DNA of 35,573 nucleotides from positions 1-35,573 of the IMG/VR virus record IMGVR_UViG_3300023115_000056. One strand, written 5' to 3'. Shown here piece after piece: positions 14,370 to 21,742 of this stretch (position 1 is the first letter of the stretch; each line of letters opens with the position of its first letter). This stretch comes from a virus. Position numbers and translations under genes: made by a program. Below the pieces are notes generated by a model. That model saw nothing but the letters and a program-made list of their open reading frames with translations. It was not told the origin of the DNA and searched no databases.

Positions 14370-15017
14370 ATGAAGAATTTTATACATCATGAATACCCTG
14401 TGATCAAACGTATTGATACCGATAATGGTAGATTATACGAAGTTCCAAATGGGAATCGTTACCCATCCGTTACGACTGTAACCGGCAAATTAAACGAAGC
14501 TGCAATTAAAGCATGGCGAGATCGCGTTGGTGAAGACGAAGCGAATCGTATATCGAACAGAGCAGCGAGTAGAGGTACTCAGATCCATGAACTATGTGAA
14601 TCCTTTCTCAAAGGCGAGCCTCTACAAGTTGATATGTTTAACCATGATATGTGGACATCTTTGAAACCTCATGTTGATAAGATTGATAACATACATGCGT
14701 TAGAAAATATGTTGTATACTGATAAGCTTGAAATGGCTGGTACGGTAGATTGTATCGGTGAATATGATGGTGAACTATCTGTCATCGACTTTAAGACTGC
14801 AAAACGTCCTAAAGAAGAATCTAAGATTGAAAATTATTTCATTCAGGCTACAGCTTACTCTCTAATGTTTGAAGAGATGTACGGGATTAAAATACCTAAT
14901 ATAGTTATATTAGTCGGCGTGGATGATGAACTGCCGCAGGTATTTAAAAAGAAACGTAAAGATTATATACAAAAGCTAGTTAAATTGCGTTTAAACGTAA
15001 AAAACAATGTACTTTAA
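14370..15017 (+). CDS. PD-(D/E)XK nuclease (RecB/Cas4-like exonuclease)
   Basis: 215 residues. Nuclease core: SRGTQIHELCESFLKG (His73 region), AGTVDCIGEYDGELSVIDFK with D127 and D140/K142 as metal and catalytic residues, then YFIQATAYSLMFEE carrying the Gln-containing helix motif. Similar single-domain exonucleases occur in T4-like cyanophages and act in DNA repair, recombination or host DNA breakdown. The gene has no Shine-Dalgarno site; its promoter lies only 9 nt upstream. The next promoter (15007) overlaps its last codons. Confidence 0.85.
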   Translation: MKNFIHHEYPVIKRIDTDNGRLYEVPNGNRYPSVTTVTGKLNEAAIKAWRDRVGEDEANRISNRAASRGTQIHELCESFLKGEPLQVDMFNHDMWTSLKPHVDKIDNIHALENMLYTDKLEMAGTVDCIGEYDGELSVIDFKTAKRPKEESKIENYFIQATAYSLMFEEMYGIKIPNIVILVGVDDELPQVFKKKRKDYIQKLVKLRLNVKNNVL

Positions 15018-15055: not shown

Positions 15056-15601
15056 ATGAAACCAAGAGTTATTGTACTTGCAATTTTTATTTTATTTGTT
15101 TTATCGATAGCAATCTTTGAAACAGAACCAGATGCTAAAACATCATATCAAGAAGACCAGATAATACGATATTCTCAACTTGATGAATCAGATCGAAGAC
15201 AAGTTGAGTGTTTGGCACAGAATATATATTACGAAGCTAGAGGTGAAAGCGAAGACGGACACATTGCTATAGCTCTCGTAACAATGAATCGATCTTTAAG
15301 TAAACTATATCCTGATGATGTATGTCATGTTGTTAGAGAAAAGCTTGGAAAAACCTGTCAATTTACATGGTGGTGCGATCCAAATCTAAGAAGTAAAGCG
15401 ACAACATACAATTATACAAAATTAGAAAGAAAAGTATATGATGATATTAGGGAACTCGCATTACATTTATATGTCAATCGAGATAATATAGAAGACTTGA
15501 CTGGAGGTGCAATCTTTTATCATGCTAACTACGTTAACCCACGTTGGAAGTATAAAAAGACAGCACAAATAGGAAAACATATTTTTTATAAAAGAAAGTA
15601 G
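15056..15601 (+). CDS. SleB/CwlJ-type cell wall hydrolase with signal anchor
   Basis: 181 residues. N-terminal hydrophobic segment (VIVLAIFILFVLSIAIF) acts as a signal anchor or uncleaved signal. The hydrolase domain (~45-178) has LAQNIYYEARGESEDGHIAI with the conserved Glu60/Glu64, then IALVTMNR, DVCHVV, CQFTWWCD and GGAIFYHANYVNPRW, as in the SleB/CwlJ (Hydrolase_2) family of peptidoglycan-cleaving enzymes. A membrane-exported muralytic enzyme could act in lysis alongside the cytoplasmic GH19 enzyme. AAGGAAG ribosome site and its own promoter. Confidence 0.88.
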   Translation: MKPRVIVLAIFILFVLSIAIFETEPDAKTSYQEDQIIRYSQLDESDRRQVECLAQNIYYEARGESEDGHIAIALVTMNRSLSKLYPDDVCHVVREKLGKTCQFTWWCDPNLRSKATTYNYTKLERKVYDDIRELALHLYVNRDNIEDLTGGAIFYHANYVNPRWKYKKTAQIGKHIFYKRK

Positions 15602-15609
15602 GAGTTTAA

Positions 15610-16218
15610 ATGGAAAACGAAGATGTAGTGACGACGAACCTACTCAACAATCTTACTAATAACGTTCATATCAATGCAGTAACATCTTCAGTGACAACAC
15701 ATGAAGTATTCCTTGATATGGATATTGAAGATCCACATAAGTATCGAAATCTTATTTCATTGCTTATCAATGCCCAAGCTAATGATCGTATTCATTTATA
15801 CATCAATAGTAATGGTGGAAATTTAGATACTGCAATAGCAATCATTAATGCTATGATGGTTTGTCAAGCAGAGATAACAGGATTTTTAATGGGTGCATGC
15901 CATAGTGCTGCTTCTATTATATCAATGTATTGTCATAATATACATGTATTTGAAACAGCGTATATGATGATACACACTGCATCTTTTGGTAACTTTGGTA
16001 ACACAACAACTGTGAAGACTCAAACAGACTTTACTGTTGAACAAGTTGAGAAGTTATTGGATGATGCTTATAGAGGTTTCTTAGATAAGAAAGAATTAAA
16101 CGAAGTGAAACAAGGTATTGAACTTTGGTATGATTCTGAAGAAATTCGTAAGAGACTTAAAAAGCGGGTAGCGATCTTAGATGCTGAAGAAAAGAAAGCT
16201 GTCAAAAAATTAAAATAA
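15610..16218 (+). CDS. ClpP-like serine protease
   Basis: 202 residues with ClpP/crotonase fold motifs: IHLYINSNGGNLDTAIAIIN, then GACHSAASIISMYC with the nucleophile Ser99, and AYMMIHTASFGNFG with His122; the acidic residue lies later. The C-terminal 60 residues are charged and helical, different from host ClpP. T4-like marine phages commonly carry such a protein; it may degrade host or phage proteins or act in head maturation, which cannot be decided here. AGGAG site directly before the ATG. Confidence 0.85.
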   Translation: MENEDVVTTNLLNNLTNNVHINAVTSSVTTHEVFLDMDIEDPHKYRNLISLLINAQANDRIHLYINSNGGNLDTAIAIINAMMVCQAEITGFLMGACHSAASIISMYCHNIHVFETAYMMIHTASFGNFGNTTTVKTQTDFTVEQVEKLLDDAYRGFLDKKELNEVKQGIELWYDSEEIRKRLKKRVAILDAEEKKAVKKLK

Positions 16219-18450: not shown

Positions 18451-20415
18451 TTAAAACGATGATGCTGCAGATTCCATCATCCAGTTTCCTTTATAGTATG
18501 CTGAAACTGTATTATCATTATTTCTAACCTGTGGTCTAATAAAGTTATTAGATGTTTGAGTACTTATATTAGTATTTGTTGGAGCATTAATATTTGTACC
18601 GCCTCCACCTTTGCCTGAATTTCTATCATAATCTGATATTTGTTTACTTGTATCTGAAACTACATCTCCAGTTTTTGCATCATATACAACACCTCTTTTC
18701 ATAATATATTCGCCTGGAGGAAGATCTTTCATTTTTTCTCTCAAACTCAAGCGTCTTTCATCAATCATTTGTCTGCGTTGAGACTTATTATTTTTTCTAG
18801 TAGCAGCTACTGCTCCAGCAGGATCGGCAGATTTTGCTATATCTCCTGCTGCAACTACTTGTTCTTCAACGTGTTCACTATCAACATCATCAAATCCACC
18901 CATTCCACGGGCAAGTTTTTCCATACCAACACCAGCTTTTTCTAGGTCTGGACCTAATGCTGCAATTTCTTGTAAGTTTTCTACAGTAGATTTTTGACCA
19001 GTCACTGCTCTAAATAAACCACCAACAAGATTAGTTACCCCTGCTACAGCTTCACCGGCACTAAATGCTATTAAGCCTGCAGCAATTGCACCAAGACCTA
19101 GACCAACTGCCATCATATTTCCAGCATCTAATACAGATAGTCTTTCGATAGATTCTACTATCTTATCCATAAATCCTGTAATTGCACCAGCTATTGTTGT
19201 AATCAAATCAGTAATGACTCCACCAATACGGACAATCATTTCTGGAATACCTTTAATAAATTCTATGAATACACTTCCCAACATTTTAACTACATCAGAT
19301 AATACTGGGGCCAGTTTTTCCATGAATGGAGCCATATAACCTAATGCTTTACCGATACCCATAAACGCTAATGTTAAAGCACCTAAACCTAATAAGACTG
19401 GAGGAGCAGCCAATGCTGCTAATGCAGGTACCATAGCCAATATACCTTGTGCTAATCCTTGGCCAATTGATTTTGCAAGTATTCCTAAACCTTTTCCTAA
19501 TCCAGCAATACCTTTACCTAAAAATCCTAATCCTGCTCCAATTCCTTTAAGTAATCCACCTCCTTTAGGTGTATCTTCTCCGCCACCGGTTGCACTTGAA
19601 CCACCTGTATTTTCAACAATTTGTTCTAATAGTTTTGTTTGATCATCACGGGATTTTATATCTTCTCGTTCTTTTTCAGATAATCCTTTACTATCCTTTT
19701 TGCCCTCTTTAATATTTTCTTTTTGTTTTTCTTTAGATTCAAAAGCTGTTAAAGATGTCATTTTTGCTAATGCATTTAATTTTTTACCACGACCACCTTT
19801 CTTTTCAGCAGCTTTTTGTGCAGTCTCTTCATCAATACCATTATCCATCATAAACTGCTTATCTTTTTCAATAGCACCTTCTAATTTTGCTTGTTCTCTT
19901 CTTGTTGCTTGTTCTTTAGCGGCTTCTCCTCTTAATTGGAAACCTTGTTTTAATTTATTGAAAACACCTTTTACTTCAGGTACTTCACCAGCCATAACTC
20001 TGGCTTTAATTCTATCGGTACGTGCTTTTCGAGCTTCAAAGGCTTGGTCTATTATACCACCGCCTCCTTGTTTAACAATTCCAGTTTTATCTAAGAATCC
20101 TCGAGGAGTTAAAAAGTTAGCAACGCCGCTGACTGCCCCGCCAACGCCACGCTTAACAGCGCCACCTATATTTCCAGCAATAGTATTATGAACTTTTCTT
20201 TCTCTTTGTTCATCTAATATTGTTCTATTTTGCTTTGTTATAGTTTCTTTAAAGTCGCCTGCAGCAATCTTTTTGAGTTCTTTGGTTATTTCTTTATCAG
20301 ACATACCTTTAGAACGCAAGTCTTTTGAAAGCTTATCATTGACTTTTGTTTGTGATTCAATAGCCTTTGTTTGCTTTTCTGAATGCTGTAATAACTTTTG
20401 TAGTATTTCTTTCAT
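18451..20415 (-). CDS. Tape measure-like / baseplate hub tail-length protein
   Basis: 654 residues. N-terminal ~60 residues are charged coiled coil; a Gly-rich region precedes a basic helical part (~130-250). Residues ~275-350 are Gly/Ala-rich and hydrophobic (GLGFLGKGIAGLGKGLGILA, AMVPALAALAAPPVLLGLGA), followed by further hydrophobic helices to ~450, typical of tape measure proteins that span the tail tube and later insert in the host membrane. The C-terminus is Asn/Thr-rich (NINAPTNTNISTQT). At ~1.5 A per residue it predicts a T4-like tail of about 100 nm. It takes the place of T4 gp29. Its ATG overlaps the stop of the gp26 frameshift extension, the classical chaperone-then-tape-measure order. 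Confidence 0.75.
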   Translation of the reverse strand: MKEILQKLLQHSEKQTKAIESQTKVNDKLSKDLRSKGMSDKEITKELKKIAAGDFKETITKQNRTILDEQRERKVHNTIAGNIGGAVKRGVGGAVSGVANFLTPRGFLDKTGIVKQGGGGIIDQAFEARKARTDRIKARVMAGEVPEVKGVFNKLKQGFQLRGEAAKEQATRREQAKLEGAIEKDKQFMMDNGIDEETAQKAAEKKGGRGKKLNALAKMTSLTAFESKEKQKENIKEGKKDSKGLSEKEREDIKSRDDQTKLLEQIVENTGGSSATGGGEDTPKGGGLLKGIGAGLGFLGKGIAGLGKGLGILAKSIGQGLAQGILAMVPALAALAAPPVLLGLGALTLAFMGIGKALGYMAPFMEKLAPVLSDVVKMLGSVFIEFIKGIPEMIVRIGGVITDLITTIAGAITGFMDKIVESIERLSVLDAGNMMAVGLGLGAIAAGLIAFSAGEAVAGVTNLVGGLFRAVTGQKSTVENLQEIAALGPDLEKAGVGMEKLARGMGGFDDVDSEHVEEQVVAAGDIAKSADPAGAVAATRKNNKSQRRQMIDERRLSLREKMKDLPPGEYIMKRGVVYDAKTGDVVSDTSKQISDYDRNSGKGGGGTNINAPTNTNISTQTSNNFIRPQVRNNDNTVSAYYKGNWMMESAASSF

Positions 20416-20597
20416 TAAGATTTACTTTCTCTCTTTTGTTTCTCTTCTTCTAAGAATTGTATAAGCATAGCAACGTAGATTTCCCTCTCAAAAGGCATCA
20501 TATTTTCTATATCAGCTAATGAATAGTTATGATGCTGCATTAATGCAAAGTTTGTTTTATAGTAGTTCTGCAAACTCTCATGAGAGAGATTTATTAA
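20415..20597 (-). CDS. -1 frame extension of gp26 (tail assembly chaperone T-like part)
   Basis: A 60-codon frame with no good start, lying -1 to gp26 and entered from the T8 run at the gp26 stop. Protein: LINLSHESLQNYYKTNFALM, then QHHNYSLADIENMMPFEREI and YVAMLIQFLEEEKQKRESKS. The motifs LADIENMMPFEREIY and a charged helical end look like the T part of G/GT-type tail assembly chaperones, and similar small frames after gp26 occur in T4-like marine phages, from memory. The only internal ATG (20538-20540) has no ribosome site. A slip at the T8 would yield a 297-residue gp26 fusion. The TAA overlaps the ATG of the tape measure-like gene by one base. Confidence 0.7.
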   Translation of the reverse strand, partial: LINLSHESLQNYYKTNFALMQHHNYSLADIENMMPFEREIYVAMLIQFLEEEKQKRESKS

Positions 20598-21307
20598 AAA
20601 AAACTTTCAAGCCCTCTTAGTGTTTTATTATGTTCTTTATTACAAACTGGACACTTATATTGTATTGAATGTTCTAGCACTGGCATTGTATCAAAGAATT
20701 CTCTAATTTTTCCAAACTGTTCACCAGTTAAATTATTTAAAAATTCCATTGTTTCTGCTTTTGGTTGTTCTTTAATATGAAATACTTCATCACTATTATA
20801 TACTGTATCAATACACTTAGCTATTACATCAAACACTTTTTCATAATCATTTTCTTCAGCATTTTCTAATTCTTTTATAATATCTATTGTTGGATATTTC
20901 ATTACAACGCCAACATCATCAAACAATTTAATATTACTATTGTGCTTTTCATTCTTAGTAACATTTAACTTAGTTAAGTCTATATTAACAACTGAAACAG
21001 CTTTATCATCAGTACATGTATCACATTGTAATGTTAAATCAATGATTTCACCTACAGATTTTGATCTTAATTGTACAAAAATGTACTCAATATCAAATGT
21101 TGCTAGTGAATCAACATCTATTTCTTGTTTAACACAAGACTTAATTACTTCTTTAATAGAACTTAGCATTACACCTGGATCTTCTGATTGCTGAGCAATC
21201 AATAGTGCTTTTTCTTCTTTTATTAAGAATGGTCTAAATTCTACTTCTTTTCCAGTTGATGGCACCGTTAATTTATAAATTGGTGCTGTATTCATAGGCA
21301 AAGCCAT
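20594..21307 (-). CDS. 26: Baseplate hub assembly protein gp26
   Basis: 237 residues, T4 gp26 (T4_baseplate) family. Conserved start: PMNTAPIYKLTVPSTGKEVE, FRPFLIKEEKALLIA, followed by CDTCTDD and, near the end, YKCPVCNKEHNKTL, two Cys pairs that could bind a metal. Helical C-terminal half with QFGKIREFFDTMPVLEH. Acts in baseplate hub or tape measure assembly. AAGGAG ribosome site. It ends GLESFF with codons AGT TTT TTT TAA TAA, creating an 8-T run at the stop codon, from which a -1 shift would continue into a conserved-looking 60-residue extension. Confidence 0.85.
   Translation of the reverse strand: MALPMNTAPIYKLTVPSTGKEVEFRPFLIKEEKALLIAQQSEDPGVMLSSIKEVIKSCVKQEIDVDSLATFDIEYIFVQLRSKSVGEIIDLTLQCDTCTDDKAVSVVNIDLTKLNVTKNEKHNSNIKLFDDVGVVMKYPTIDIIKELENAEENDYEKVFDVIAKCIDTVYNSDEVFHIKEQPKAETMEFLNNLTGEQFGKIREFFDTMPVLEHSIQYKCPVCNKEHNKTLRGLESFF
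20596..20603 (-). promoter_or_regulatory. Probable -1 ribosomal frameshift site (T8)
   Basis: Eight T's on the - strand span AGT TTT TTT TAA at the end of gene 26. Re-pairing both TTT codons one base back avoids the double stop TAATAA and enters the open 60-codon frame. No downstream stimulatory hairpin was identified by eye. Confidence 0.65.
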
Positions 21308-21310
21308 GAT

Positions 21311-21742
21311 CTATTCTCCTTTATTATCTAAATCATTAAGTAGTTTATTCAACTCACTTGTACTACCTACAAAGATAGCATTGTTATTAGTAACACCTTC
21401 TTTCTTTTCAGAACCTTTAGGGTTATCTAACTTTTGCTTCTTATCATGTAGGCTAAGCAACTGTTCATTCACATCAGCTAGTTGCTTGATTAAGTTACCA
21501 ACAACCTCAAACGCTCTAGGGTGTTCAGATTGTTTAGCAATCTCTAATGCATTCATTAATGCATCTTGTCCTTGAACTAATAAGCCGTGAAGATTATCAC
21601 GAGACCTATCATAATCAAAGTCAATATTCTCTTCTATCTTTTTAGACTTAGGTGGTAACACCGATCCGTCTTTCTTTATAACCTCTGTCTTATCCATTGG
21701 TTCTACATCGAACACTTTAGACAGATTTTCATCAGTACTCAT
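21311..21742 (-). CDS. 16: Terminase small subunit gp16
   Basis: 143 residues (T4 gp16: 164). Pattern shared with T4: an acidic N-terminus, DYDRSRDNLHGLLVQGQDAL (T4: DYGVVRRNMHFQQQ), AKQSEHPRAFEVVGNLIKQL (T4: ADSPRHMEVFATLMGQM), LLSLHDKKQKL and C-terminal NNAIFVGSTSELNKLL (T4: NATVFMGSPTELMDEI). It forms the ring that helps the large terminase gp17 recognise and cut concatemeric DNA for packaging. It lies on the - strand between baseplate genes rather than next to gene 17. AGAGG ribosome site. Confidence 0.88.
   Translation of the reverse strand: MSTDENLSKVFDVEPMDKTEVIKKDGSVLPPKSKKIEENIDFDYDRSRDNLHGLLVQGQDALMNALEIAKQSEHPRAFEVVGNLIKQLADVNEQLLSLHDKKQKLDNPKGSEKKEGVTNNNAIFVGSTSELNKLLNDLDNKGE

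Follow-up and report, generated by a model that had tools for sequence, protein, structure and literature searches.

How might the open −1 frame that follows gene 26 of this uncultured virus be translated? The window, i.e., the whole 35,573-nt stretch of DNA analyzed here (IMG/VR virus record IMGVR_UViG_3300023115_000056), carries gene 26 on its minus strand, and the 3′ end of the gene reads GAA AGT TTT TTT TAA TAA. A first reading of the letters alone (the sequence-only reading) had pointed out this ending with its T8 run, a 60-codon continuation in the −1 frame and a one-base overlap of the continuation with a tape measure-like gene, and had proposed a programmed −1 frameshift. The ending, the continuation and the overlap are all present. 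The features of the junction are as follows.

20594..21307, minus strand: gene 26, frame 0, 237 amino acids, predicted short tail assembly chaperone (TAC-N) (PF12322, phrog_150, AlphaFold2)
20597..20603, minus strand: slippery heptamer T_TTT_TTT, read from the sequence; T_TTT_TTN stands in register in 74/77 distinct relatives
20594..20596, minus strand: frame-0 stop codon TAA, immediately 3′ of the heptamer, read from the sequence
20415..20597, minus strand: −1 frame extension (putative TAC-C), 60 post-slip codons and a stop (phrog_634, 655 phage records, pN/pS)
18451..20415, minus strand: tape-measure-like ORF, 654 amino acids (phrog_6090, tail length tape measure, E 2.9e-4; HTVC008M, P-SSM2 and other phages have it at the same position)
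20575..20586, minus strand: weak 3′ hairpin candidate with the palindrome CTCTCATGAGAG, some 10 nt past the heptamer (fold z)

The T8 run (20603-20596) consists of the heptamer plus the T of the TAA stop, and no other A or T homopolymer in the window reaches 8 nt. The open −1 frame spans 20606 to 20415, and a fusion through it would have 297 residues, the 60 post-slip codons being translated as LINLSHESLQNYYKTNFALMQHHNYSLADIENMMPFEREIYVAMLIQFLEEEKQKRESKS. The last A of the extension stop (20417-20415) doubles as the A of the tape-measure-like ATG. The match of this ORF to phrog_6090 is weak, and its position agrees with that in relatives. A single PF12322 gene is found in the 35.6-kb record, which is a fragment. 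Gene 26 and the tail tube gene are separated by a small terminase-like gene (21311-21742; phrog_445, E 1.4e-36). The −1 frame was said to have no usable start, and this is borne out in the window: the first TTG is codon 10 and the first ATG is codon 21, neither has a Shine-Dalgarno match, and starting at the ATG would remove the conserved segment LSHESLxNYY.

Conservation of the extension and of the heptamer

Homologues of the extension were found by tblastn in 655 phage records with identity up to 64%, and the window extension falls in phrog_634 (E 3.3e-28). Conservation begins at the first post-slip codons. Among closely related pairs the pN/pS of the extension is 0.154, and the differences at positions 3, 1 and 2 of the −1-frame codons number 1359, 605 and 291, an excess of third-position changes; the gp26 frame over the same stretch has a mean of 6.6 stops. 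The protein-like character ascribed to the −1 frame is thereby confirmed. In S-RSM4, P-SSM2, S-PM2, Melnitz and HTVC008M the annotation treats the extension as a "gp51" gene of its own with 44 to 57 amino acids and with starts that vary among phages, and in ACG-2014j, S-CAM1 and Aeromonas AS-szw it is left unannotated. The unannotated AS-szw extension (L094, 2001-2177) comes with T_TTT_TTC. The window extension is homologous to the short cyanophage "gp51" and to the C-terminus of T4 gp51 and, as judged by comparison of sequences, it is a real coding sequence.

The comparison covers 77 distinct gp26 junctions, taken from named isolates and from contigs of IMG/VR. T_TTT_TTN stands in register in 74 of them, its last base being C in 45, T in 28 and G in 1. 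In all 74 loci the −1 frame holds the extension, the heptamer precedes the gp26 stop by 0 to 24 nt, the first Phe codon is TTT, and the codon before both Phe codons ends in T (AGT, GAT, TCT, AAT or GGT). The heptamer is expected in 38% of cases per locus from each gene's own codon usage; since the loci share ancestry, the product of these expectations is not a probability. The pattern is far beyond chance because homologues occur in 655 records, the pN/pS is 0.15 and the heptamer is kept at 74/77 junctions. The three junctions with no heptamer belong to Vibrio D507 (L098) and two Ackermannviridae, Vibrio BX-1 (L100) and CBA120 (L101), and a TAATG overlap occurs in two of the three. At least in BX-1 and CBA120 the reading apparently goes on in the −1 frame, and re-initiation or another slip site may be used in these three phages.

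Elements capable of stimulating slippage were sought on both sides of the heptamer. Relative to dinucleotide shuffles, the 45 nt that begin 10 nt from the first base of the heptamer have a mean fold z of −1.36 among the relatives, with 31% below −2, vs means of −0.70 to 0.22 at eleven other offsets. The hairpin CTCTCATGAGAG of the window has a fold z of −2.2 (value for L001, identical in sequence), and it is broken in L004, a relative of 91% identity. A shared alignable 3′ stem was not found by RNAalifold, the pair probabilities being spread over registers. A 3′ RNA structure is therefore likely for many lineages, with S-PM2, P-SSM2 and S-N03 as the strongest cases, while the hairpin of the window phage is a weak candidate. 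On the 5′ side, GGAGGG or GAGGG lies about 9-10 nt before the heptamer in many relatives. A Shine-Dalgarno-like stimulator was not adopted, as the motif is not clearly above codon usage in a synonymous-codon control (median p 0.125, 15/74 at ≤0.05).

A second junction in the window was also considered for frameshifting. The exonuclease gene (14370-15017) ends with the in-frame heptamers T_TTA_AAC and A_AAA_AAC (14990-15017), and an open −1 frame runs from its end into an endolysin-like gene (15056-15601). This candidate was rejected because the endolysin-like gene has its own AAGGAAG ribosome site, and the heptamers there are probably due to chance. A gene for a ClpP-like ATP-dependent protease (15610-16218; phrog_1827, E 3e-52) adjoins the endolysin-like gene.

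Predicted fold of gp26 and the two T4 homologues

The window gp26 belongs to PF12322 (E 5.5e-64, 216 bits vs the curated cut-off of 24.5) and also matches phrog_150. It is about 42% identical to the nearest isolates, and the phage collection yielded no near-identical isolate. Sequence comparison found no match of gp26 to solved structures. An AlphaFold2 model built from a 39-sequence alignment has a mean pLDDT of 87.8. Its best PDB structural matches are 3fgx (Z 7.8), the HK97 TAC 2ob9 (Z 7.7) and YqbN 3klu (Z 7.5), all within gp26 residues 1-95, the alignment to 2ob9 spanning residues 1-85, and the next match drops to Z 4.6. A Z of 7.7 is middling if taken alone, and Foldseek gives the model against 2ob9 a probability of 0.84 but an E of 0.75. 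The model thus lends moderate support to a chaperone fold in the N-terminal domain. The predicted fold over this part is the same as that of the HK97 TAC and YqbN, whereas gp26 has about 150 additional residues and two Cys pairs. The modeling supports the view of gp26 as a tail assembly chaperone to which a C-terminal part, bearing these pairs, is added. The pairs, C95xxC98 and C219xxC222, lie outside the chaperone-like domain and could bind zinc.

In T4, both gp26 and gp51 are assigned to PF12322 by hmmscan, which also puts the gp51 C-terminus and the window extension into one family, phrog_634. Similarly, the extension profile matches the 50 C-terminal residues of gp51 from T4, Proteus phiP4-3 and Aeromonas 50AhydR13PP. 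The T4-type gp26 and gp51 cluster in the family tree (99/97), in which the branches are long. Since both proteins are PF12322 members and gp51 carries the extension in frame, T4 makes the short and the long form from two genes: gp26 corresponds to the short form, and gp51, with the same C-terminal domain, to the long form. Unlike the single locus of the window, genes 26 and 51 of T4 are separate, on opposite strands, and have no slip heptamer; in T4 gene 26 the heptamer position is taken by GAG TTC TTT. It seems, from these comparisons, that T4 swapped the frameshift for a gene duplication. The one-gene frameshift arrangement is kept elsewhere in Straboviridae, in Vibrio PVA23 (Schizotequatrovirus) and Aeromonas AS-szw (Ceceduovirus).

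Probable frameshifting and rival explanations

A programmed −1 ribosomal frameshift that yields a long form of the tail assembly chaperone is very likely, because a conserved heptamer, a coding extension with no start, RNA folding, the predicted fold and the homology to T4 gp26 and gp51 speak for it; from these we infer the slippage itself. The sequence-only reading had taken gp26 for a tail chaperone with a minor form of 297 residues, and this agrees with the conservation, the lack of an extension start signal, the 3′ RNA structure in relatives and the fold match. The majority of ribosomes would stop at the TAA after the T-run, which would make the 237-residue TAC-N the major product. In a minority, the two tRNA-Phe paired with TTT_TTT in the P and A sites would slip back one base on T_TTT_TTT, after which both could re-pair perfectly, and the slipped ribosomes would translate 60 further codons into a 297-residue TAC-NC, presumably a minor product. 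By analogy with gpG/gpGT of lambda, many short copies may coat the tape-measure protein, the product of the next gene downstream, and a few long copies may recruit tail tube subunits via the extra domain. Several observations count against frameshifting, namely that the heptamer of the window ends in U where most relatives have C, that the 3′ hairpin of the window is weak and not common to the 91% identical L004, that the Shine-Dalgarno-like motif on the 5′ side does not exceed what codon usage gives, and that the fold match has a middling Z and a Foldseek E of 0.75.

Alternatively, the extension can be regarded as a separate small gene, the cyanophage "gp51", translated either from a start codon that belongs to it or by ribosomes that re-initiate past the gp26 stop. 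It is annotated in this way in P-SSM2, S-PM2, S-RSM4, HTVC008M and others. An ATG lies within six codons of the slip in 30/74 relatives, which makes coupled re-initiation possible, and the three heptamer-less phages, two of them with TAATG, also fit this explanation. Nevertheless, the annotated starts (44 to 57 amino acids) are inconsistent between phages, and the first 25 codons of the 74 extensions have no candidate start with a Shine-Dalgarno energy of −6 or lower; the median for early extension ATGs is 0.8 kcal/mol, vs −6.2 for the gp26 start. In the window itself only the TTG at codon 10 and the ATG at codon 21 are available, the latter at the cost of LSHESLxNYY. A separate gene would also leave the conserved heptamer unexplained, and we consider it improbable. 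Loss of the T-run in relatives, or an extension standing as an independent gene with its own ribosome site, was named by the sequence-only reading as evidence that would overturn the frameshift; the run is kept at 74/77 loci, and the annotated versions of the extension have no ribosome site.

The long form could also arise from slippage of RNA polymerase on the T8 run, as one extra U leads to the same frame, and T8 is found in near relatives as well as in the window, where it is the sole run of its kind. In 45/74 distinct relatives, however, the arrangement is kept with only TTTTTTC, in which a T6 is short for such slippage, and the codon register is always that of a ribosomal heptamer; polymerase slippage is thus very improbable. 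A homopolymer of 8 is likewise a frequent place of indel errors in sequencing, and the split could then reflect an error or a decayed frame in what is truly a single in-frame fusion. This is almost certainly not the case, since identical or near-identical junctions were recovered from independent metagenomes (L001-L005) and the same split with TTTTTTC is seen in finished isolate genomes. Ribosomal frameshifting is accordingly the explanation retained below.

Comparison with T4 and with known chaperone frameshifts

According to Atkins et al. (2016, PMC5009743), frameshifting of the lambda G/GT type is conserved in the long-tailed phages "except T4". The sequence-only reading had likewise stated that T4 is not usually considered to have the G/GT arrangement. 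This stands for T4 itself, which has no slip site because the two forms lie in two genes, 26 and 51; it does not stand for T4-like phages in general, in which such genes have already been reported (Vladimirov et al. 2022). The PRFect paper (PMC10885494) mentions that some T4-like phages have two genes, one short and one longer and fused, in place of frameshifting, and PMC12846349 cites Vladimirov et al. on polyT slip sites in T4-like TAC-N genes. The finding made here is therefore an independent recognition of a published phenomenon. A study by Vladimirov, Gautam and Davidson, in Virology of 2022 (566:9-15), reportedly concluded that several T4-like groups seem to have conserved the frameshift and that T4 relies on genes 26 and 51.

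The apparent exception of T4 is simply explained if genes 26 and 51 supply both forms as separate genes. Sullivan et al. (2010, PMC3037559) reported that gp51 of cyanophages and marine vibriophages is without its first 200 residues, and that Aeh1 is without gp51. Frameshifting would explain the shortened gp51 of the cyanophages and marine vibriophages. If the AS-szw group is Aeh1-like, as we assume, frameshifting probably explains the gp51 reported missing in Aeh1 as well. The short cyanophage "gp51" genes, whether annotated or omitted, as in ACG-2014j, S-CAM1 and Aeromonas AS-szw, would be the frameshifted half of one gene, and one annotation rule could correct hundreds of phage genomes. We suggest, tentatively and with somewhat less than even confidence, that frameshifting is ancestral in the chaperones of T4-like phages, aided by a 3′ stem-loop that varies with lineage, and that the T4 type replaced it via duplication. 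If true, the replacement would allow a direct comparison of systems with one gene and with two. Both the 3′ folding signal and the retention of frameshifting by Straboviridae that are not of the T4 type (Schizotequatrovirus, Ceceduovirus) may be undescribed so far.

The locus shows the marks by which a frameshifted tail assembly chaperone can be recognized: a slip heptamer (T_TTT_TTT in the window, T_TTT_TTN at 74/77 loci), a conserved −1 C-terminal domain with no start of its own, a predicted chaperone fold with moderate support, and a place directly before the tape measure gene, with a one-base overlap and a weak phrog_6090 match. It resembles lambda gpG/gpGT in arrangement, a short chaperone and a −1 long form just upstream of the tape measure gene. 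In lambda the slip heptamer is different and gpG is shorter. The lambda-type G/GT strategy appears to occur widely in T4-like phages, in marine ones and in several from land. As cited in PMC10885494 and PMC12846349, the frameshifted T4-like chaperones of Vladimirov et al. share with the window the gene family, the short and long forms, the poly-T slip site and the position before the tape measure gene, and the window differs in no point of principle, being from an uncultured lineage with T_TTT_TTT and a stop immediately after it. Frameshifting of the chaperone gene is a known and well-conserved phenomenon, and the window phage is almost certainly a further, unannotated and uncultured member of those that have it.
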